Assembly (NCBI GenBank): GCA_024734495.1
Contig: JALMQS010000278.1
Span: 62,001 to 126,000, forward strand
Source: Forficula auricularia
Lineage: Eukaryota > Arthropoda > Insecta > Dermaptera > Forficulidae
Direction: 5' to 3'
DNA: 64,000 nt
The position numbers were made by a program, and so were the translations under genes. The notes beneath the pieces were generated by a model. It had not been told where the DNA came from, did no database searches, and saw only the letters and a list, made by a program, of their open reading frames with translations. Shown here one piece after another: positions 6,273-61,730 of this stretch. The first letter of the stretch is position 1. Each line of letters opens with the position of its first letter.

Positions 6273-6615
6273 GTAAGTAATTTCATATAATATAACAGAT
6301 TTTGTTAAGGGAAAAAATGGTGTGGGTTCTTGCTGAAACATTCAAAATAAATTAAAGAAAATTTTAAAAAGTTTCTAAAATTTTTCAAAATTTTCTTTAC
6401 TTTAATATATCAGATCTCATGGTTAATCGCATACTGAATTAAAATACATAATTATATTAAGTGCGGTAAAATCGTCAAACATGTTCGCGATTTTTTTAGG
6501 ATGTGTAGGTACTAAATCATTGAACGACTAAGAATAATTATGTTCATGATTTTTTGTTATCACGAACGATAAATGAACTTGTTTGGATAAAATTCAATTG
6601 TTTAACTATAATTGA

Positions 6616-7013
6616 GTGGATATTGATGAGGCAGTCCAAAAAAAGAAGATAATTTATACTATCTTTTTATTCATAAACCAACGTTTCGGAGGCTATTCCC
6701 TCCTTCAGGGTTTTGAAAAGTCGGTGAAGGAAATCTAATGCGACATCTCCCTTTGTCTCCTCTTTCAGTGGCAGTAATAATATATTGTATTTCATTCTCA
6801 GTTTACTACATTATAATTCTGCTGAGAATGAAATACCATATATTATTGACAGTGACACTGAAAGAAGAGACAGAGGGGAATGTCGCATTGGATTTCCTTC
6901 ACTGACTTTTCAAAACCCTGAAGAAGGAGGGAATAGCCTCCGAAACGTCGGTTTATTAATAAAAAGATATCATAAATTATCTTCTTTTTTAGGACTGCCT
7001 CATCAATATCCAC
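6616..7013. mobile_element. Fold-back element FB1, about 398 bp, with hammerhead motifs in its arms
   Basis: The left end GTGGATATTGATGAGGCAG is mirrored at the right end (CTGCCTCATCAATATCCAC). The two arms of about 185 bp are near-perfect inverted copies around a loop at 6800-6825. The right arm carries an intact hammerhead-type core (6918-6949); the left arm has the complementary version with a three-base loss in the CTGAAGA segment. Related copies lie at 9950-10105, 43080-43250, 46386-46770, 56270-56440 and 57055-58440. Confidence 0.85.
6918..6949 (+). ncRNA. Minimal hammerhead ribozyme motif, family 1
   Basis: CTGAAGA at 6918-6924, stem II GGAGG/CCTCC (26-30 with 37-41) around loop GAATAG, GAAA at 6942-6945, then CGTC. 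With the preceding A, ACGT is self-complementary, so stem III is expected to form best between two copies; cleavage would follow GTC. The flanks AAACC and GGTTT pair as stem I. These are the conserved elements of a type I hammerhead; activity is inferred, not shown. Confidence 0.75.
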
Positions 7014-7186
7014 ACAATTTCACTTATCAGTCCGTCTCCAAAAATTACTCCAATCTTATTTAACTATAATATTCATAAATCTCAAAACGCTTTGTCAATT
7101 ACCTTCTTAGGCATCGGTCACAATGGATGCGTGTTTGAGCGATTTATTACACTAACGTATACGAACGACGTTGTCGTGCGACTGCG

Positions 7187-7352
7187 ATAGTTTCGAAGGC
7201 TTTGGCCCTCATCATCAGTCTTTTTAATTATAAATTTATTTTTCATGGGGTTAGTATCCACAATATCCAAACGATACCTACTGACCCCATGAAAAATAAT
7301 ATTAATAATTAAAAAGACTGATGATGAGGACCAAGCCTTCGAAACTATAGTC
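7187..7352. mobile_element. Fold-back element FB2 with family-2 hammerhead core
   Basis: The left arm begins GATAGTTTCGAAGGCTTTGG and the right arm is its near complement ending at ACTATAGTC. Inside, AAATTTATTTTTCATGGGGT is mirrored at 7285-7310. Followed directly by a (TA)n run and a 60-bp tail (7411-7480, TTTATTTGCATCAAGCAGAG) that also occurs at 34300-34370, 35440-35520 and 50430-50465, so the tail and the ribozyme core seem to belong to one family. Confidence 0.7.
7318..7352 (+). ncRNA. Minimal hammerhead ribozyme motif, family 2
   Basis: CTGATGA at 7318-7324, a stem II of GAGG with CTTC (one G-U pair), GAAA at 7341-7344, then CTATAGTC. ACTATAGT is self-complementary and would form stem III, with cleavage after GTC. 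Stem I pairing is weak (about two base pairs). The complementary arm at 7187-7221 has the same core on the minus strand but ends CTATC, so it is probably inactive. Confidence 0.6.
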
Positions 7353-7363
7353 TCAAACAAATG

Positions 7364-7367
<4 letters not shown>

Positions 7368-7403
<36 letters not shown>
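7368..7403. repeat. (TA)n microsatellite next to FB2
   Basis: About 36 bp of uninterrupted TA, directly between the family-2 ribozyme element and its conserved tail. The same tail-(TA)n arrangement recurs near 34376 and 35430. Confidence 0.9.
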
Positions 7404-7406
<3 letters not shown>

Positions 7407-8110
7407 ATATACCATATATGTGTGTATGTTTATTTGCATCAAGCAGAGGACAACCTCTTTGTTTGTTTCTATGAATCTACCTGTAGTTCATTACAAATAT
7501 TGTTATATATTAAAATTAGAAAATTTAATTAATTAGAGGTATTTTCTATTGAAGACGGAATGTTAGAACTCAATGATGAATAGATGCAAAGGCATGCCTA
7601 AAGATAATGAAAACCACACAATTCGAATAAAATAATTTATTAGGAGCTCATTTTCATCCTCTTAAAAAATCAGACGATTCGAGACGCCTTCTTCAGGGTT
7701 TAAATTGTCAACGTAGGAACCTATCTGTTTATTAATATTATTTTTAATTTCGTTTAATTTCAAATCTTTGTGTATAGCGATGCGTTGATGATGGCAGGGA
7801 GTGGATCAAAACGTTCAAAAAAAAAATTAAATTTTATTTTAGTTTTATTCAATTCTGGCTCCAAATAAAATTCAACCCTTTTACTTGAATTGAAAGTCTA
7901 AAATAATATGAATATATTGCTTTTGACTAAAGACAGGTATTGCGTAAAGAATAGGCTAGTAAAGCTGTCCGCCTGTATCTATGCAACCGATAGGCGCTCC
8001 TGGATCGTTATAGCCTACCCTACAGGCGTCCTTATTAAATGAATAGTTTTCATAATGTTTAAAATTTGACGGCCATCTCCCATGAGCTCATTTCCTACTT
8101 ATCTAATTAG

Positions 8111-9949: not shown

Positions 9950-10105
9950 TCGAGTGGATTTTGATGAGGAAGTCCAAAAAAAAGAGAAATAATTTAAACT
10001 ATATTTTTTATTCAAAAACCGACGTTTCGGAAGCTTATTCTCTCCTTCTTCAGGGTTTTGAAACGTCAGAGAAGAAGGAGGCCCCTAAACGTCGGTTTTT
10101 GAATA
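9950..10105. mobile_element. Short FB1 fold-back copy
   Basis: Begins with GAGTGGATTTTGATGAGG and the AACCGACGTTTCGG arm, then the loop, then a shortened right arm in which the hammerhead core is scrambled (GAAGAAGGAGGCCCCTAAACG). The left arm keeps an intact minus-strand core at 10021-10053. Located in the last Stac intron. Confidence 0.7.
10021..10053 (-). ncRNA. Minimal hammerhead ribozyme motif, family 1 (minus strand)
   Basis: On the minus strand: CTGAAGA, stem II GGAG with CTTC(C), GAAA, CGTC. The flanks AAAACC and GGTTTT give a six-base-pair stem I. All invariant core positions are present. Confidence 0.65.
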
Positions 10106-16779: not shown

Positions 16780-17745
16780 TTTGCTGAAGACAGAGAAATC
16801 GATTTTAAACCAAAAATAGCGATTGATTCTCATCTAGTACTTGAGGAATAATCATTCTATATTGGATTTTTGACGTTTCGGTTTTTATTAGTAACCATTC
16901 CTGAAGACATAGAGAAATCGACTTTAAACCAAAATTAGCGATTGATTCTCATCTAGTACTTGAGGAATAATCATTCTATATTGGATTTTTGACGTTTCGG
17001 TTTTTATTAGTAACCATTCCTGAAGACATAGAGAAATCGACTTTAAACCAAAATTAGCGATTGATTCTCATCTAGTACTTGAGGAATAATCATTCTATAT
17101 TGGATTTTTGACGTTTCGGTTTTTATTAGTAACCATTCCTGAAGACATAGAGAAATCGACTTTAAACCAAAAATAGCGATTGATTCTCATCTAGTACTTG
17201 AGGAATAATCATTCTATATTGGATTTTTGACGTTTCGGTTTTTATTAGTAACCATTGCTGAAGACATAGAGAAATCGACTTTAAACCAAAATTAGCGATT
17301 GATTCTCATCTAGTACTTGAGGAATAATCATTCTATATTGGATTTTTGACGTTTCGGTTTTTATTAGTAACCATTCCTGAAGACATAGAGAAATCGACTT
17401 TAAACCAAAATTAGCGATTGATTCTCATCTAGTACTTGAGGAATAATCATTCTATATTGGATTTTTGACGTTTCGGTTTTATTAGTAACCATTCCTGAAG
17501 ACATAGAGAAATCGACTTTAAACCAAAAATAGCGATTGATTCTCATCTAGTACTTGAGGAATAATCATTCTATATTGGATTTTTGACGTTTCGGTTTTTA
17601 TTAGTAACCATTCCTGAAGACATAGAGAAATCGACTTTAAACCAAAATTAGCGATTGATTCTCATCTAGTACTTGAGGAATAATCATTCTATATTGGATT
17701 TTTGACGTTTCGGTTTTTATTAGTAACCATTCCTGAAGACAGAGG
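16780..17745. repeat. Tandem array of a 119-bp unit, about eight copies
   Basis: The word TTGAGGAATAATCATTC starts at 16841, 16960, 17079, 17198, 17317 and 17436 (spacing 119 each), with one copy shortened by a base and two more following. Units are almost identical, so the array is young or homogenised. Each unit holds GACGTTTCGG and CCTGAAGACATAGAG. Diverged inverted copies continue at 17760-18050, 19590-19800 and 19940-20290. Confidence 0.95.
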
Positions 17746-40469: not shown

Positions 40470-40728
40470 GAGTTCACAGAGGGAATTTTAAAAAGTTTCT
40501 AAAATTTTTCAAAATTTTCTTTACTTTATTTAAAATGTTTCACCAAGAACCCACACCATTCTCCCTTAACAAAAAATAATAATAATATATATAATGGGAG
40601 GCGCTGGGATATTTAATTGTTTAATTAATTAATCAAGGCCAACGCTGCGAAAAATGAACGAGGAGAGGATTAAAAAAAGAAATTCCATAATTCATATAGA
40701 CACTAAGTATTAGTTTGGATTCAGGGAT

Positions 40729-40818
40729 CAGTAGCTTAGTGGATATAGGAGCTAAAGCTCTTATGACAAAGCATTGCAGTACACATGCAAAGATCCCGGG
40801 TTCGAGCCCCGGCTGACC
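40729..40818 (+). repeat. tRNA-derived SINE head or tRNA-like pseudogene
   Basis: An A-box-like TAGCTTAGTGGA and a perfect T arm CCGGGTTCGAGCCCCGG (B box GGTTCGAGCC), then CTGACC that can pair with GG(A)TCAG at the 5' end, then TTTT. The anticodon region holds an extra segment (CATTGCAGTACACATGC), so it is not a normal tRNA. Confidence 0.6.
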
Positions 40819-40903
40819 TTTTGTCTGTAATAAAAATAATATTTTCTTCGTTCTCTAAATTTAAATATATATAATATTTCAGATCAAGCACAAGACACCC
40901 TTA

Positions 40904-41089
40904 GGGCCGGTTGTATGTCGGTTGGTAAACTCTTTTTAACCGTTGGCAAAGGGTAAAAGGCTGGGATGGCCAATCAGATGAAAGTGCCTGCCAATCAGAT
41001 GACAGGCGTTTTCATCTGATTGGCCATCCCAGCCTTTTACCCTTTGCCAACGGTTAAAAAGAGTTTACCAACCGACATACAACTGGCCC
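40904..41089. mobile_element. Near-perfect fold-back MITE with TA target site
   Basis: About 80-bp arms starting GGGCCGGTTGTATGTCGGTT, mirrored at the right end with essentially one mismatch. The loop (GCCTGCCAATCAGATGACAGGC) contains its own small hairpin. TA lies at both edges. The near-identity of the arms suggests recent activity or strong structural conservation. Confidence 0.88.
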
Positions 41090-43079: not shown

Positions 43080-43250
43080 AATAAGAAGGCAGGTAGGTGG
43101 ATTACCATATGCTTCCTTCATTGGCCTTTTTGAACCCTGAAGAAGAGGAAGATCCTCCGAAACGTCGGTTACAAAATATTATAAGGGGAAAATATTTCCA
43201 ATAAATACTTTTTTATTGGAAGTAGTCTTTTACTTATTTCTGGACTGCCA
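43080..43250. mobile_element. Partial FB1 fold-back copy in the CRAL-TRIO intron
   Basis: Only a right-arm-like part is present: TTTTTGAACCCTGAAG...CGAAACGTCGGTTA and a diverged distal part ending near CTGGACTGCCATACATCC. The minus-strand open frame across 43169-43423 overlaps it and is not a gene. Confidence 0.6.
43137..43166 (+). ncRNA. Minimal hammerhead ribozyme motif, family 1
   Basis: CTGAAGA at 43137-43143, stem II GAGGA/TCCTC with a three-base loop, GAAA at 43159-43162, then CGTC. The flanks AACC and GGTT pair. Stem II differs in sequence from 6918-6949 yet stays paired, which argues for selection on structure. Confidence 0.68.
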
Positions 43251-44074: not shown

Positions 44075-44898
44075 CAGGGTGGCGCAGATGGATCGGGTGG
44101 TTTTAAAATAGTTGTCAAACTGTGTCGGGTGGTTTTAAAATAGTTGTCAAACTGTGTCGGGTGGTTTTAAAATACTTGTCAAACTGTCAATTTTAAAGGT
44201 ATTGGATTGAAATAAAGTGCAAAACGTGTAGTTACAATGGAAGTTTATTAACAAAAAATTAGTAAAGTTAGTTTTTAAAAATTACATCCATCAAATGCTC
44301 CTCCTTCTCGAGCGAGGGGTGCTGGGAGAAGGAATTCTTCAATCATGTTCACATAACGCTGCGAATTAACAGTAACCGCCTGCTCCCACAACGTGAAGAG
44401 AACAATTACGACATGGACAATATGTGGTTCCAACAAGACGAGGCAACTGCACATACCGCTAGGATATCAATGCAAGCTGTACGCGCTCTGTTCCCTGGCC
44501 GTTTGATTTCCCGTAATGGAGATCTCCATTGGCCCCCTCGCTCACCGGACCTCACGGTATGTGACTTCTTCTTATGGGGCTATTTAAAAGCAAGGGTGTA
44601 CATGAACAAACCCCGGACCATTCAGGAGTTGAAGGCAGCAATTCACAACGAAATCACATTAATTCCTGGTGATGTGCTTGAGAGGGCAATGCGGAACGTT
44701 AAGGACCGACTCCAAGAATGCGTCGCTCGAGAAGGAGGGCATTTGATGGATGTAATTTTTAAAAACTAACTTTACTAATTTTTTGTTAATAAACTTCCAT
44801 TGTAACTACACGTTTTGCACTTTATTTCAATCCAATACCTTTAAAATTGACAGTTTGACAAGTATTTTAAAACCACCCGATCCATCTGCGCCACCCTG
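44075..44898 (+). pseudogene. Mariner-type element with an inverted-duplicated end
   Basis: Ends CAGGGTGGCGCAGATGGATC and its complement, with TA on each side (44073-44074 and 44899-44900). The plus strand codes for a C-terminal transposase part from NMWFQQDEATAHTARI (second catalytic Asp) through HWPPRSPDLTVCDFFLWGYL (third Asp) to a stop at 44769. The left 240 bp are an inverted copy of the right end, including the last transposase codons, and carry three copies of a 32-bp unit (GTCGGGTGGTTTTAAAATAG). The N-terminal half is absent, so it is dead. Confidence 0.9.
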
Positions 44899-46385: not shown

Positions 46386-46770
46386 TTGGATGTTGATGAA
46401 TTAGCAGTCCACGGTGGTTGTAAAAAATAAGACTATAAGAGGTTTTATTATTTTACATTTATTTGTTAAACCGACGTTTCCGAGATTTATTCTCTCCTCT
46501 CAGGGCAACAAAAAGTCAATGACTGATTATTATTTTACTATTTATTTGAAATAACCGGACGTTTCGGAGATTTATTCTCTCCTTCTTCAGGGTAACAAAA
46601 AGTCAATGAAAGTAGTTCAAAAAAATAGTTACTTATTGACTTTTTGTTACTCTCAGATGAGAGGATAAATCTCCTGAAACGTCGGTTTGACTAAATAAAT
46701 GTAAAATAATAAAACCTCTATAGTCTTATTTTTTACAACCACCGTGGACTGCTTTCATCAACATCCAATT
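46386..46770. mobile_element. FB1-related fold-back copy with a doubled left arm
   Basis: Left end TTGGATGTTGATGAATTAGC and right end GCTTTCATCAACATCCAA are mirrored, as are CCACGGTGGTTGTAAAAAAT and complement. The arm segment AACCGACGTTTC...AGTCAATGA occurs twice on the left (46470 and 46550). One of the three hammerhead cores is intact. Confidence 0.75.
46558..46590 (-). ncRNA. Minimal hammerhead ribozyme motif, family 1 (minus strand)
   Basis: CTGAAGA, stem II GGAGA/TCTCC, GAAA, CGTC on the minus strand. Stem I needs a one-base bulge (GTTACC against CGGTT). The neighbouring cores at about 46472-46500 and 46655-46682 are damaged in CTGANGA. Confidence 0.55.
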
Positions 46771-46961: not shown

Positions 46962-48290
46962 CCTTTTTTTTTTTTTTTTTAATGCAATCGAATGCAAGAA
47001 GGGGTGCACCAGTAAAGGTGTAGTCCCTATGGATCTCGAAAGACCCTTGCATTACCGAAGAGAAGGAAAGTTGATTAAGTGAGAGGGTGTAGACGTAGGT
47101 GTCTATGCACCCTGGTTTTGAAGGTTTGAAGATCATAGGTGCTGGGAAAGATAGAGGCTGGGAGAGAGTTCCAGTTCCTTGAAGTCATGGGGATATATGT
47201 ATTCGCGAATGAAGTGGTCCGGCACTTTTCCAATTTGACCGCAAAAGAGTGTTGGGAGTCGGCAAAACGTGTGCTGCGTGCAAAGTATGCTTTGGGGGGA
47301 ATTATTGATTTTATCTCATCAGAGCACCTGCCGTGATAGTATCTATAGAAAAGGGAAAGGGCAGAGACATCTCTTCGATGAGCCAGCGAGTCGAGGGAGT
47401 CGGTGAGGGTAGAATCGTCAATTAGCCTGACGGCTCGTTTCTGAATTGCATCAAGGGTAGCAAGAGAATATTTTGAGGCTCCTCTCCACAGATGAGAGCC
47501 GTATTCGAGACAGGGGCGGATTTGGGCCTTGTAGATGGTGAGAAGATGTGGGGGTTTGTAAAATCGCTTGGACCTGAATAAGAAGCCAATCTTCCTTGCT
47601 GCAGATTTCGCCACAGAGGAGATGTGTTCATTCCAAGACAGGTCAGATGCGACAGAGACGCCCAACATGGATAGGCTGTCACACATTTTCAGGGTATTCG
47701 AATCGAAGTGAATATCAGGGAAATCTCTATTTTCGCGCCTAGAAATTAGACAACATTGAGTCTTATTTGAATTAAAGTTAACTAAATTTTGAGAGCCCCA
47801 TTTATTCAGTTTGTCTAGGTCGAGAGTAATTGAGGAGGCAATATTGATTCGATTATTCGGGAGAGAGGGTTTGCCGTGTAGAGTGCTATCGTCGGCGTAA
47901 CAATGAGTGGGGTTTGCCGTTTGATCAATAAGGTCGTTTATATAAATAAGGAAGAGTGTGGAGGAGATTACAGAGCCTTGGGGAACACCAGAGTTTGTGG
48001 AGAACGATTCAGATGATGTTCCATCCACCACAACTTTTATACTTCGGTTTGTCAGAAAGCTTTCTATCCATTTGCGAAGTGTTGGTGTGAATCCAAAGGC
48101 TGGCAGTTTGGCAAGAAGATTTTTGTACCAAACCTGGTCAAAAGCTTTGGAGATATCAAGGGCTACAGCGAGGGTTTCTTTTCCGGCCTCTAGAGTATTG
48201 TTCAAGGTGTGGGTGACATAGGTTAAGATGTCGCCTGTGGAACGATTTTGTCTGAATCCATATTGCCTATCGTGAATTACCATAATTTAT
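46962..48290 (-). mobile_element. LINE copy C, longest 5'-truncated copy
   Basis: On the minus strand, runs from about 48290 to a poly(A) tail (T run at 46964-46980). Contains an open RT frame (47075-48283) and about 100 bp of 3' UTR. Inserted in the CRAL-TRIO intron in the same orientation as that gene. Confidence 0.9.
47075..48283 (-). CDS. Reverse transcriptase, C-terminal 402 codons of a Jockey/CR1-like LINE
   Basis: Uninterrupted frame. RT blocks in order: YGFRQNRSTGDIL (near residue 8), ALDISKAFDQVWY with the first catalytic Asp (about 40), SGVPQGSVISSTLFLIYIND (about 97), CYADDSTLH with the catalytic YADD (about 128), then LGVSVASDLSW and the thumb/connection region with CLEYGSHLWRGAS. 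The endonuclease domain, ORF1 and the first RT blocks are missing by 5' truncation, so it cannot move itself. The intact frame and near-identity with copy D point to recent insertion. The first methionine is only the first ATG after the truncation. Confidence 0.93.
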   Translation of the reverse strand: MVIHDRQYGFRQNRSTGDILTYVTHTLNNTLEAGKETLAVALDISKAFDQVWYKNLLAKLPAFGFTPTLRKWIESFLTNRSIKVVVDGTSSESFSTNSGVPQGSVISSTLFLIYINDLIDQTANPTHCYADDSTLHGKPSLPNNRINIASSITLDLDKLNKWGSQNLVNFNSNKTQCCLISRRENRDFPDIHFDSNTLKMCDSLSMLGVSVASDLSWNEHISSVAKSAARKIGFLFRSKRFYKPPHLLTIYKAQIRPCLEYGSHLWRGASKYSLATLDAIQKRAVRLIDDSTLTDSLDSLAHRRDVSALSLFYRYYHGRCSDEIKSIIPPKAYFARSTRFADSQHSFAVKLEKCRTTSFANTYIPMTSRNWNSLPASIFPSTYDLQTFKTRVHRHLRLHPLT

Positions 48291-56269: not shown

Positions 56270-56440
56270 CATTGATCCTTTGAAACCCCGAAGAAGGAGA
56301 GAAGAATCCTCCGAAACGTCGGTTTGAGAGGAAAGAAGGAAGGATTCCAATAAATTACACCTTATTTGATATGGGTTAATTTTTCTTTCCTCACTACCCC
56401 TGGGCTGCCTTCCATTACATTCAATTATATAAATAATAAT
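56270..56440. mobile_element. Decayed FB1 copy
   Basis: CATTGATCCTTTGAAACCCC and CGAAACGTCGGTTTG are recognisable. The hammerhead core reads CCGAAGA instead of CTGAAGA, removing an invariant U. The distal part ends near GGGCTGCCTTCCATTAC. Confidence 0.65.
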
Positions 56441-57105
56441 CTACTAAGGTCTTTGATAAAATTGTCCTTATTCAATTTCTTGGTGTGTCTATAGATTCAG
56501 ATACACACAATAAATTAAGAAGGAAAAGTCGAAGAAAGTTCGTTCTTGTGCTAATGATTGTATTTTTAATGCGAGGAACTGAATGGATTTTCGGCTTTCA
56601 ATCTCTAGATCTTCTGGTTAAAAGATGTAAAATTATTCAAAAAATATCATTTTTGAATCATTTTTCGAGATTTTAATCCGTTTCTAAACTAAAAAATATT
56701 AAACATTCGAATAGATGTGTTTTACAATTACCATTTAATAAATGGTATACAAAAATAAAAATTTCATTTTTTGAATAAATTTTAATTTAAAAGAATAACC
56801 CGTAGTGGTTAGGCTTAAAAAATGTCATTGAAAAAGTGGTCATTTACCAAATCAATCTATAAAGGCAATGGTTTAAAAAATTAATTCACCAAATCTACGA
56901 ACAGCGTATCGAGACTAAATAATTTTTAGAAAAAAAAAACCGAGACTTCAAAAAAATTAAATGCAACAAATACAATAATAAGAAATCAAAAATAAAATAA
57001 AATGCACTAAAAGGTATAAAATAATAAGATTGGAGTAATTTTTGGAGACGGACTGATAAGTGAATTAAGTGGATATCGATGAGGCAGTCAAAAAAAGAAG
57101 AATAA

Positions 57106-58203
57106 ATTTTTTTTTTTTTTTTAATGCAATCGAATGCAAGAAGGGGTGCACCAGTAAAGATGCAGCCCCTATGGATCTCGAAAGACCCTTGCATTACCGA
57201 AGAGAAGGAAAAGTTGATTAAGTGAGAGGGTGTAGACGTAGGTGTCTATGCACTCCGGTTTTGAAGGTTTGAAGATTATAGGTGCTGGGAAAGATAGAGG
57301 CTGGGAGAGAGTTCCAGTTCCTTGAAGTCATGGGGATATATGTATTTGCGAATGAAGTGGTCCGGCACTTTTCTAATTTGACCACGAGAGAGTGTTGGGA
57401 GTCGGCAAAACGCGTGCTACGTGCAAAGCATGCTTTGGGGGGAATTATTGATTTTATCTCATCAGAGCACCTGCCGTGATAGTATCTATAGAAAAGGGAA
57501 AGGGCAGAGACATTTCTTCGATGAGCCAGCGAGTCGAGGGAGTCGGTGAGGGTAGAATCGTCAATTAGCCTGACGGCTCGTTTCTGAATTGCATCCAGGG
57601 TAGCAAGATAATATTTTGAGGCTCCTCTCCATAGATGAGAGCCATATTCGAGACAGGGGTGGATTTGGGCCTTGTAGATGGTGAGAAGTTGTGGGGGTTT
57701 GTAAAATCGCTTGGACCTGAATAAGAAGCCAATCTTCCTTGCTGCAGATTTCGCCACAGAGGAGGTGTGTTCATTCCAAGACAGGTCAGATGCAACAGAG
57801 ACGCCCAACATGGATAGGCTGTCACACATTTTCAGGGTATTCGAATCGAAGTGAATATCAGGGAAATCTTTATTTTCGCGCCTAGAAATTAGACAACATT
57901 GAGTCTTGTTTGAATTAAAGTTAACTAAATTTTGAGAGCCCCATTTATTCAGTTTGTCTAGGTCAAGAGTAATTGAGGAGGCAACATTGATTCGATTATT
58001 CGGGAGTGAGGGTTTGCCGTGTAGAGTGCTATCGTCGGCGTAACAATGAGTGGGGTTTGCCGTTTGATCGATAAGGTCATTTATATAAATTAGGAAGAGT
58101 GTGGAGGAGATTACAGAGCCTTGGGGAACACCAGAGTTTGTGGAGAACGATTCAGATGATGTTCCATCCACCACAACTTTTATACTTCGGTTTGTCAGAA
58201 AGT
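57106..58203 (-). mobile_element. LINE copy D, 5'-truncated
   Basis: The T run at 57106-57122 and TTAATGCAATCGAATGC mark the 3' end on the minus strand. The copy ends at its 5' side near TTCGGTTTGTCAGAAAG (58200), about 150 bp short of copy C. Confidence 0.9.
57218..58174 (-). CDS. Reverse transcriptase C-terminal fragment, 318 codons
   Basis: Uninterrupted frame nearly identical to the end of copy C, beginning just before SGVPQGSVISSTLFLIYIND and including CYADDSTLH (YADD active site) and LEYGSHLWRGAS. The palm Asp block ALDISKAFD is lost by truncation, so it cannot be an active enzyme. The two copies differ by scattered substitutions without stops. Confidence 0.9.
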   Translation of the reverse strand: MVDGTSSESFSTNSGVPQGSVISSTLFLIYINDLIDQTANPTHCYADDSTLHGKPSLPNNRINVASSITLDLDKLNKWGSQNLVNFNSNKTQCCLISRRENKDFPDIHFDSNTLKMCDSLSMLGVSVASDLSWNEHTSSVAKSAARKIGFLFRSKRFYKPPQLLTIYKAQIHPCLEYGSHLWRGASKYYLATLDAIQKRAVRLIDDSTLTDSLDSLAHRRNVSALSLFYRYYHGRCSDEIKSIIPPKACFARSTRFADSQHSLVVKLEKCRTTSFANTYIPMTSRNWNSLPASIFPSTYNLQTFKTGVHRHLRLHPLT

Positions 58204-58327
58204 TTTTTACATTTACTACATTATAATTCTGCTGAGAATGATATACAATATATTATTGTTACTGCCACTGAAAGAGGAGACAGAAGGGAATGTCGCATTG
58301 GATTTCCTTCACTGACTTTTCAAAACC

Positions 58328-58359
58328 CTGAAGAAGGAGGGAATAGACTCCGAAACGTC
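58328..58359 (+). ncRNA. Minimal hammerhead ribozyme motif, family 1
   Basis: CTGAAGA at 58328-58334, stem II GGAG/CTCC, GAAA at 58352-58355, CGTC. The flanks AAAACC and GGTTTT give a six-base-pair stem I. Core identical to 6918-6949 apart from one stem II change. Confidence 0.75.
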
Positions 58360-58445
58360 GGTTTTATGAATAAAAAGATAGTGTAAATTATCTTCTCTTT
58401 TTTTTAGACCGCCTCATCGATATCCACTTAGTATAAAATAATTAT

Positions 58446-60216: not shown

Positions 60217-61730
60217 CTCATGGACAAAATTAGCGGAACAACAAAAAAAGCTATAATTCGATTTAAAGCGACTCTTATCTTTTAGTTTCTTTATTAATTT
60301 GTTAAAATATTATTTTTAAACTTAATTTTATTTAAAAACTCACATAAATATTGATTTTTCCTCAAATCTCACATTTTATTTAAATTTTATAAAATTTATC
60401 TTTATTAGGTACATTGTATCAAATTGCTTATTCTCTTAGAATTAACCTGTTTTTTTAAACATTGATTGAACAAAGTTGATTTATCATTAAAATTGGCTCG
60501 TCAGACATTAAACTTGACATTAAATGCAAAATGACGGATATGAGCGAATTTGAGGTCGCCAGAGCTGTTACGTTAATTGTAAACAGCAAAAAGACATACC
60601 AAGAAGTGGCTGAAATGCTTGGTGTATTGAAATCTACTATAGAACAATGTCACAATATTGGACAATACAAGAGACATGAAGGCCAAGTTAGAAAAAGGGT
60701 TAGATCCACTAGCGACGATAGATTTATTGTTAGCTCTGCTCTGAAAAATCGTGCCCATACCGGAATTGACATCCGAAATCAACTGAAAGTAATGAGACAG
60801 GTGACAGTGTCTGTTAAGACAGTTAAAAGAAGACTGAACGAAGGTGGATTATTATCGGGAAGACCGGCCAAGGGTCCCCATTTAGAGACACGTCATCGAG
60901 TAGAGCGTCCACGATTTGCAAAAAACCATGAGAATTGGTCTGAGATGGAGTGGAGCCATATTTTGTTCATAGACGAATCCAAATTTTGTCTGAAGCCAGA
61001 CGATGGAAAGGTGAGAGTGTGGAGACGCCGCAATCAGAGGTACCATCAATGAAACATTTTTCCGCGGACGGGTTTCGGTGGCGGCTCTGTAATGGTTTGG
61101 GCTGACATTTCTTTGGGGGTGCGTACGGAATTACACACCGAGGAAAATGGGTTAATGAATACTGAAAGGTATATTTCAGACATTCTGGAAGAATATGGAA
61201 TGCCTTTCGCTTATTCTAATGCAAGACAATGCTCGCCTTCACGTAGCCCAGAAAGTTTGTCACTATTTGTCAGCAGTGAATTTGTCGACAATGAATTGGT
61301 CTGCACCCTCCTCAGATTTAAATCCGATTGAGCATGTCTGGGAGATGTTGGGAAGACCATTGAAGAAGAGATCTCTAACTCCTGTTACCTAGAGGAACTG
61401 AAAAATGCACTTCTTGAGGAAGCGTATACCTCAAAAATTAAATTGATAACGCAATTAAGAGCATGCCTATGAGAGTTAAATGTGTTGTCAGAGCCAGGGG
61501 AGTGAATACAAATTATTAAAACAATTGAAATTTTTTATAAAGAAGATAAATACAATCAAACATTAAATCATTTAATTTCATATAAGACATATTTTTTTAA
61601 TTTAAAATTTTGCAATTTGTTAATTAATGTCAAAATTAGTTCAAAATTATCAAAATCACTTATATATTATATAAAATAAGCATATTTTTCAGGCTTTTAT
61701 TCGACGTTCCGCTAATTTTGTCCACGAGCT
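60217..61730 (+). mobile_element. Tc1-like transposon, about 1.5 kb, inactive
   Basis: Ends CTCATGGACAAAATTAGCGG (left) and CCGCTAATTTTGTCCACGAG (right). The exact outer bases are uncertain because the right side has an extra C before TTATA. Contains one transposase gene in broken frames. Confidence 0.88.
60531..61470 (+). pseudogene. Tc1-type (DD34E) transposase, frame-broken
   Basis: ATG at 60531 opens 173 codons: an N-terminal helix-turn-helix (TYQEVAEMLGVLKSTIEQC), a second DNA-binding part with basic linker (TVKRRLNEGGLLSGRPAKG) and the first catalytic Asp in HILFIDESKF, then a stop after RRRNQRYHQ. The remainder continues as GFGGGSVMVWADI, then after a shift LMQDNARLHVAQ (second Asp) and SSDLNPIEHVWEMLGR (catalytic Glu), then further stops. 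At least one stop and two frameshifts, so inactive; the decay is modest. Confidence 0.9.

Follow-up and report, generated by a model that had tools for sequence, protein, structure and literature searches.

A minimal type I hammerhead motif in a probable Penelope-derived fold-back insertion of Forficula auricularia

Here we describe a hammerhead motif at positions 6918-6949 of a 64,000-nucleotide stretch of contig JALMQS010000278.1 of Forficula auricularia (the window; plain coordinates below refer to it). The motif is very probably a minimal type I hammerhead such as those of Penelope-like elements (PLEs), and lies in a short non-autonomous PLE-derived insertion in which two 5′-truncated 3′ ends stand head to head. 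This kind of hammerhead is already known. What stands out is the scale of its presence in this genome, the diversity of its families, an extra base beside the core and the one-tail geometry of the units. The activity and in vivo role of PLE hammerheads have been called a mystery in a review (PMC7761336, as excerpted). A genome in which many families contribute about 100,000 core matches offers the statistics to separate RNA constraint from drift, and the copies genome-wide appear to show base 17 obeying the cleavage rule. The combination of divergent motifs, one tail and one target-site duplication (TSD) is a geometric clue to how PLEs insert, and the Rfam hammerhead models miss these copies in this window.

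Anatomy of the motif and its fold-back unit

Together with its flanks, the motif (6913-6954) reads AAACC CTGAAGA A GGAGG GAATAG CCTCC GAAA CGTC GGTTT, with stems I and II of 5 bp each (Table 1). Re-reading of the sequence bore out the coordinates 6918-6949 given by the sequence-only reading, together with its stem I (AAACC/GGTTT) and five-base-pair stem II. The strict hammerhead core is defined as C3 U4 G5 A6 N7 G8 A9, G12 A13 A14, A15.1-U16.1 and H17 (PMC3088659, as excerpted), and all of these bases are present, H17 being the C at 6949. The same excerpt has the stem II pair 10.1-11.1 directly adjoining A9, a rule that the extra A6925 breaks; the earlier description of the core as intact thus holds for every core base and overlooks this additional one. 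Stems I and II are supported by pairing, folding and covariation. Stem III is the minimal palindrome that had been proposed, a self-complementary ACGU that has no loop and is not closed within a single copy, as in the PLE-type minimal form, in which helix III is reduced and dimer-capable.

The fold-back repeat noted earlier is real, its arms being 91% (6603-6706/6923-7026) and 86% (6699-6782/6844-6927) complementary. We take the unit to span 6613-7058 because it is bounded by a 12-bp direct repeat. Beyond the motif, the left arm continues for 71 nt and the right arm for 113 nt, and the extra ~40 nt of the right arm are common to other family-A copies in the family alignment. The minus-strand partner motif at 6683-6708 reads GTT. 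Inverted ends, a tail on one arm and a TSD are the features given for inverted pLTRs (PMC3846280, as excerpted). Within 6613-7058 there is no reverse transcriptase (RT) or endonuclease coding sequence, and no listed open reading frame of at least 100 aa (from ATG, GTG or TTG) overlaps it, in agreement with the earlier statement that no protein gene explains the motif. The unit appears to be non-autonomous and, because its arms are 87% alike, an old copy or relic. The dimer envisaged in the sequence-only reading could not form in cis from this unit alone: its two motifs are opposite in direction and one is broken.

Folded in isolation, RNA 6905-6966 has a best structure made up of stems I and II and nothing else; the pair probabilities are 0.99 (stem II) and 0.44-0.52 (stem I). 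For the right arm alone (6813-7058), the values are 0.78-0.98 and about 0.07, and in the whole-unit transcript (-276 kcal/mol) both ribozyme stems have probability 0. Given this zero probability, activity of the motif in place is predicted to be unlikely; the whole-unit hairpin should hide it.

Table 1 Features of the window. R1 is a covariance model built from ten other families of the same genome.
Feature	Position	Strand	Basis
TSD, left copy TTTAACTATAAT	6601-6612	.	12-bp exact direct repeat flanking unit
Whole fold-back, putative PLE-derived non-autonomous unit, 446 bp	6613-7058	+	Self-inverted 6610-7019 at 87%, TSD-bounded
Left (inverted) arm without tail, midpoint approximate	6613-6811	-	Self-comparison, TSD
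Degenerate partner hammerhead motif, core region 3 bases short	6683-6708	-	R1 28.8 bits at 6674-6714
Right arm with hammerhead motif and tail	6812-7058	+	Self-comparison, family alignment
Stem I, 5′ strand AAACC	6913-6917	+	Sequence, folding
Core CUGAAGA (C3-A9)	6918-6924	+	Sequence, R1
Extra base A6925, between A9 and stem II	6925	+	One extra base in 64/66 sampled copies
Stem II, GGAGG 6926-6930 / CCUCC 6937-6941, 6-nt loop	6926-6941	+	Pair probability 0.99 isolated; covariation in other families
Core GAAA (G12-A15.1)	6942-6945	+	Sequence, R1
CGUC, rest of self-complementary ACGU and C17; predicted cut after 6949	6946-6949	+	Sequence, base-17 counts
Stem I, 3′ strand GGUUU	6950-6954	+	Sequence, folding
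Tail, extending past the other arm's end, start approximate	7018-7058	+	Family alignment; arm lengths 71 and 113 nt
TSD, right copy TTTAACTATAAT	7059-7070	.	12-bp exact direct repeat
Neighbouring family-B fold-back, motifs 7218 (-) and 7318 (+); stem III ACUAUAGU in plus copy	7187-7348	+	Self-comparison, exact-core clusters
Family-A motif copy	10015-10059	-	R1 37.1 bits
Family-A motif copy	43131-43172	+	R1 27.9 bits
Family-A motif copy; neighbours 46467-46509 (-), 46648-46689 (+)	46552-46596	-	R1 32.7, 17.0, 12.7 bits
Family-A motif copy, C for U at the second core base	56282-56326	+	R1 27.3 bits
Second family-A1 unit: tailed left arm, LINE-like fragment, right half with motif 58328	57026-58430	+	12-bp direct repeat 57014-57025 / 58431-58442

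Abundance, pairing and the base at the cut site

The pattern CTGANGA-N5..30-CGAAAC has 105,611 matches (52,816 + 52,795) in the whole 1.06-Gb genome of 845 contigs, counted as copies and not as independent events. Because the reversed pattern gives only 720 (380 + 340) in the same genome, the motif is not a chance occurrence. Within the window a looser pattern matched 69 times, many of these rows being one place with several 3′ ends, whereas 100 shuffles averaged 17.8 and always stayed below 69.

Copies were compared in a 270-kb sample composed of the window, 20 stretches (19 of 10 kb and one of 695 bases) and five 3-kb match-centred loci. Densities in the sample are biased because part of it was picked for matches: seven of the 20 stretches were chosen for listed matches, and an eighth also has one. 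Allowing one substitution per half and requiring a stem II of at least 4 bp, the sample holds 66 copies, and in 64 of them a single base separates A9 from the longest possible stem II. Its 81 exact-core matches form many clusters that differ in flanks and stems; 19 of these are singletons, some of which look like chance. Invariance of the core is partly by construction, most copies having been found by a pattern that fixes it, and because the searches required the core it cannot be claimed from these sets.

Pairing was assessed on an alignment of ten ACGU-class families that excluded family A as well as families B and C; the model was built from these ten because MAFFT had misaligned families C2 and C3 in A1. 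With the hammerhead stems imposed, 84.4% of cells were paired (shuffled mean 53.8%), 27 cells were changed on both sides (9.8 shuffled) and the covariation score was 0.775 (0.215 shuffled), values reached by none of 500 shuffles. The number of pair types was reached by one of 500 shuffles and a weaker measure, the number of pairs with a double change, by 22 of 500, while six of six slid registers were lower on both cells paired and score. Families with unrelated stems thereby appear to keep stems I and II by compensatory change. In a hand-picked set of 21 copies, the paired fraction of positions is 0.905 for stem II (0.523 partner-shuffled) and 0.798 for stem I (0.433 partner-shuffled; 0/10,000 in both cases). 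Stem III is self-complementary in all 21, with lengths set by hand, a choice that matters in AU-rich families, and none of the 21 has G at position 17.

The covariance model R1, built from the ten families and thus never exposed to family A, placed 6912-6955 at the top of the window (40.3 bits, E 2.2e-8), and its next six places there were all family A. The check that had been suggested, a search with Rfam covariance models, gave a different result. No hammerhead was matched in the window at E up to 5, in 6500-7500 at E up to 10, or in the window at gathering thresholds, the last run being not exhaustive (its listing was empty, yet a tRNA match in the permissive run lay above the gathering score). 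We attribute this failure, tentatively, to the extra base and to a stem III that lacks a loop. Matches to miRNA families at 6.7-7.35 kb were rejected as long hairpins that score well under the cut-offs of those families. In viral contigs, the family-B pattern found nothing and the family-A pattern gave three matches, with L001 and L003 sharing one stretch; these GC-rich matches, unlike the window, are probably chance occurrences in phage genes. They score 21.2, 21.2 and 14.6 bits with R1 and, because they were chosen by the pattern, are no fair negative for it.

Genome-wide, the base following CGAAACGT is C in 30,716, T in 20,095, A in 1,898 and G in 974 matches (7, 15, 6 and 6 in the reversed-pattern controls). 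Base 17 is therefore other than G in 52,709 of the 53,683 core matches covered; the other 51,928 do not continue with GT. This bias is best read as the cleavage rule NUH, and the order C > T > A > G fits what we take to be the hammerhead preferences. GTG after CGAAAC occurs in a family with the stem GTCG../..CGAC, as a NUH exception or with a shifted cut site. Among the matches listed, the GTG rows come mostly from one family, and in at least one lineage it would seem that position 17 is G or that the cut site lies elsewhere.

Divergent pairs and the link to Penelope-like elements

Close neighbours are mostly divergent pairs (minus then plus), which make up 18 of 27 in the 270-kb sample and 20 of 24 among 89 places listed on contig C3, two sets that overlap. 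In ten of ten pairs with both arms aligned (families A1, A2 and B1; by eye), the tail is on exactly one arm, and the window pair 6613-7058, also one-tailed, brings the number to 11. Direct repeats of at least 11 bp flank 12 of 21 divergent pairs versus 17 of 398 different-locus flank pairs (Fisher p 2e-10), with a threshold set after the first direct-repeat comparison and with the window pair included after its repeat had been seen; without that pair the count is 11 of 20. A direct repeat of 11 bp is absent from the other nine of the 21. A first permutation, in which 1,420 of 20,000 reached the observed mean, was spoiled by neighbouring loci with shared flanks, and the comparison was redone with different loci only. 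In the 12 repeat-flanked pairs, the repeats measure 12-20 bp, the shorter arm 66-126 nt and the longer arm 103-177 nt, with a difference of 19-64 nt.

The link to PLEs made in the sequence-only reading gains support from this fold-back anatomy and from the position of the motif 3′ of PLE endonuclease loci in other families. The motif lies downstream of a PLE endonuclease in 19 of the 19 loci examined, which belong to families other than A and of which 15 are one family. Those 15 are the close copies returned by a whole-genome endonuclease search (9,276 candidate places, 150 scored), and in each of them the motif follows the stop codon by 342-351 nt. Within the sample, L019 holds an endonuclease-like open frame, and L023 and L027 hold relatives of its C-terminal part. 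All three fragments are 5′-truncated and have a same-strand motif roughly 210-360 nt after the stop (with a damaged stem II in L023), and each is preceded by an inverted copy of the sequence 3′ of the motif. In L019 this inverted arm is 104 nt long at 97% and starts inside the core; those of L023 and L027 were read by eye. Neither Pfam nor NCBIfam gives a GIY-YIG match for the L019 fragment; its database relatives read SGVYK..FYIGQTGRSF..R..EH, and in three of five scanned relatives Pfam GIY-YIG is the sole match, below cut-off. One further locus has an 827-codon open frame with RVT_1 (E 1.5e-9), a motif 358 nt after the stop, and 175-bp direct repeats (97.7%) that start inside the motif. This is how an autonomous, pseudo-LTR-bearing Penelope-like element is laid out. 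For family A, the probable link is based on anatomy and motif: the coding loci examined belong to other families, and no PLE coding sequence of family A turned up.

Minimal type I hammerheads of Penelope-like elements were reportedly described by Cervera and de la Pena in 2014 and by Lunse, Weinberg and Breaker in 2017. De la Pena and Flores are said to have described, in 2001, a viroid hammerhead with one extra base between A9 and stem II, as here, but in viroid RNA and with an ordinary stem III. In excerpts of two reviews (PMC6155905, PMC7761336), the PLE hammerheads have a reduced helix III suited to dimers and are dispersed by the thousands in animal genomes, in PLE pseudo-LTRs. The copies described here share with them the core, stems I and II and the reduced helix III. 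They differ from what these excerpts describe in their number (core matches exceed 100,000 in a single 1-Gb genome), in the extra base after A9 (64/66 sampled copies) and in close neighbours that are mostly divergent rather than tandem. Inverted pLTRs in head-to-head order, with an optional tail on one of them and TSDs, have likewise been described for PLEs (PMC3846280, as excerpted). Copies of Penelope in the rotifer Adineta vaga, treated in that excerpt, share with the present loci the inverted pLTRs, the single tail, the TSD and 5′ truncation; the word hammerhead is absent from that paper.

How the units may arise, and other features

In the RNA of a parent PLE, the motif would fold into stems I and II and cut after GUC, either in a dimer whose stem III is formed jointly by the palindromic ACGU of both copies or with the PLE protein assisting. 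The protein would start reverse transcription at one of two sites, ~70 and ~110 nt 3′ of GAAA in family A, by analogy with the Anolis PLE study, and arms ending at these sites would lack or carry the tail. Both broken target ends would be extended on PLE RNA; priming at both is expected to give head-to-head 3′ ends, outward-pointing motifs and a TSD. The sampled loci show these predicted products: inverted arms, two outward-pointing motifs, a single tail and a target duplication. The inserted copies continue across the cut site, which means that their templates had not been cleaved at that point. Formation of the inserted end does not require the ribozyme, which may serve to trim or regulate tandem RNA.

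The Anolis element PAc (PMC11167929, as excerpted) is the closest parallel in mechanism, with its hammerhead at the pLTR-ORF junction, two adjacent RT start sites that lie tens of nt 3′ of the cut and enclose the tail, and an enzyme that cleaves and extends both target strands. Its hammerhead did not cleave without protein. PAc is autonomous and full-length, whereas the unit 6613-7058 has no ORF. A wider reading, which we offer tentatively, is that two-ended target-primed reverse transcription, one end from the far and the other from the near RNA start site, is the one-tail rule that filled this genome with many thousands of fold-back ribozyme units, and that these hammerheads, whose extra base is constant, form a subclass of their own that depends on protein or on dimer formation, and are not ordinary ones in decay. 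For head-to-head structures in the rotifer, self-priming on antisense RNA has instead been proposed as the cause (PMC3846280, as excerpted), and it may apply to the present units too.

Another reading is that the motif might be no ribozyme at all but a structural signal, a stem-loop with flanks kept for binding of the PLE protein in packaging or priming, with cleavage absent or incidental. We consider this unlikely, though several points favour it: inserted copies extend uncut across the cut site, catalysis should suffer from the extra base and from a stem III without a loop, and in the Anolis system hammerhead mutants still insert in vitro while cleavage needs protein (PMC11167929, as excerpted). 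A binding site, however, need not follow the cleavage rule at base 17, as these copies do, nor need it keep stem III self-complementary as in the 21 hand-picked copies, whose stem III lengths were set by hand. 

Two further readings place the unit in other classes of mobile element. The sequence-only reading had named retrozymes, non-autonomous non-LTR elements that spread as circular RNA cut by tandem hammerheads. Metazoan retrozymes share the type I hammerhead and a short non-coding unit, and differ in the direct tandem repeats that give circular RNA (PMC7229834 and PMC7761336, as excerpted). Tandem arrays do exist in the same genome (a 119-bp unit five times in L048; nine copies mostly 226 bp apart on C4), but the unit 6613-7058 holds an inverted pair in place of direct copies, and divergent pairs predominate among close neighbours in both sets counted above. 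The kinship is a poor fit, and we regard it as very improbable. Least credible is a fold-back DNA transposon or MITE family with the motif in its terminal inverted repeats by accident. Short palindromic units without coding capacity, outward inverted ends and target duplications would all suit such a family, but the length of the 12 direct repeats ranges from 12 to 20 bp, the tail makes one arm longer, the end sequence differs between families, and in relatives similar ends are attached to coding sequence for PLE endonuclease or RT.

Several other features of the window were recorded. Two RT ORFs (47078-48283 and 57221-58174) match RVT_1 and were set aside as LINE rather than PLE, an identity that we presume from their look and a T-run. 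The LINE-like fragment of the second family-A1 unit (57107-58214, minus strand) has its T-run against the left arm, is 97% like 46965-48073 and replaces about 130-150 nt of the unit 57026-58430; it could reflect either a template switch in PLE reverse transcription or a LINE insertion with deletion. At the thresholds applied, searches of Pfam, PDB and protein databases found no relative of the 572-aa open frame P0003 (30440-32155). At 60531-61049 and 44272-44766 there are a Tc3-type transposase fragment (Pfam) and an open frame without a Pfam match that we take to be mariner-like. In the permissive Rfam run, 40725-40820 matched a tRNA family (40.3 bits versus a gathering score of 29), and a GC-rich (49%) hairpin at 40943-41050 matched several miRNA models below their cut-offs.

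Repeated arrangements also occur. In the window, 46406-46750 is a palindrome that contains, within about 220 bp, a tandem pair of minus-strand motifs and a single plus-strand motif, and 16901-17663 is a tandem array with CTGAAGACATAGAGAAATCG and seven looser-pattern rows 118-119 bp apart. Elsewhere, G000:C4:3474873-3476686 holds, among the matches listed, nine same-strand GTT-family copies mostly 226 bp apart, a retrozyme-like spacing. In L048 (273-863; G000:C4:1022301-1023500), five tandem 119-bp motif repeats lie behind one inverted copy, a dimer-capable array within a fold-back.
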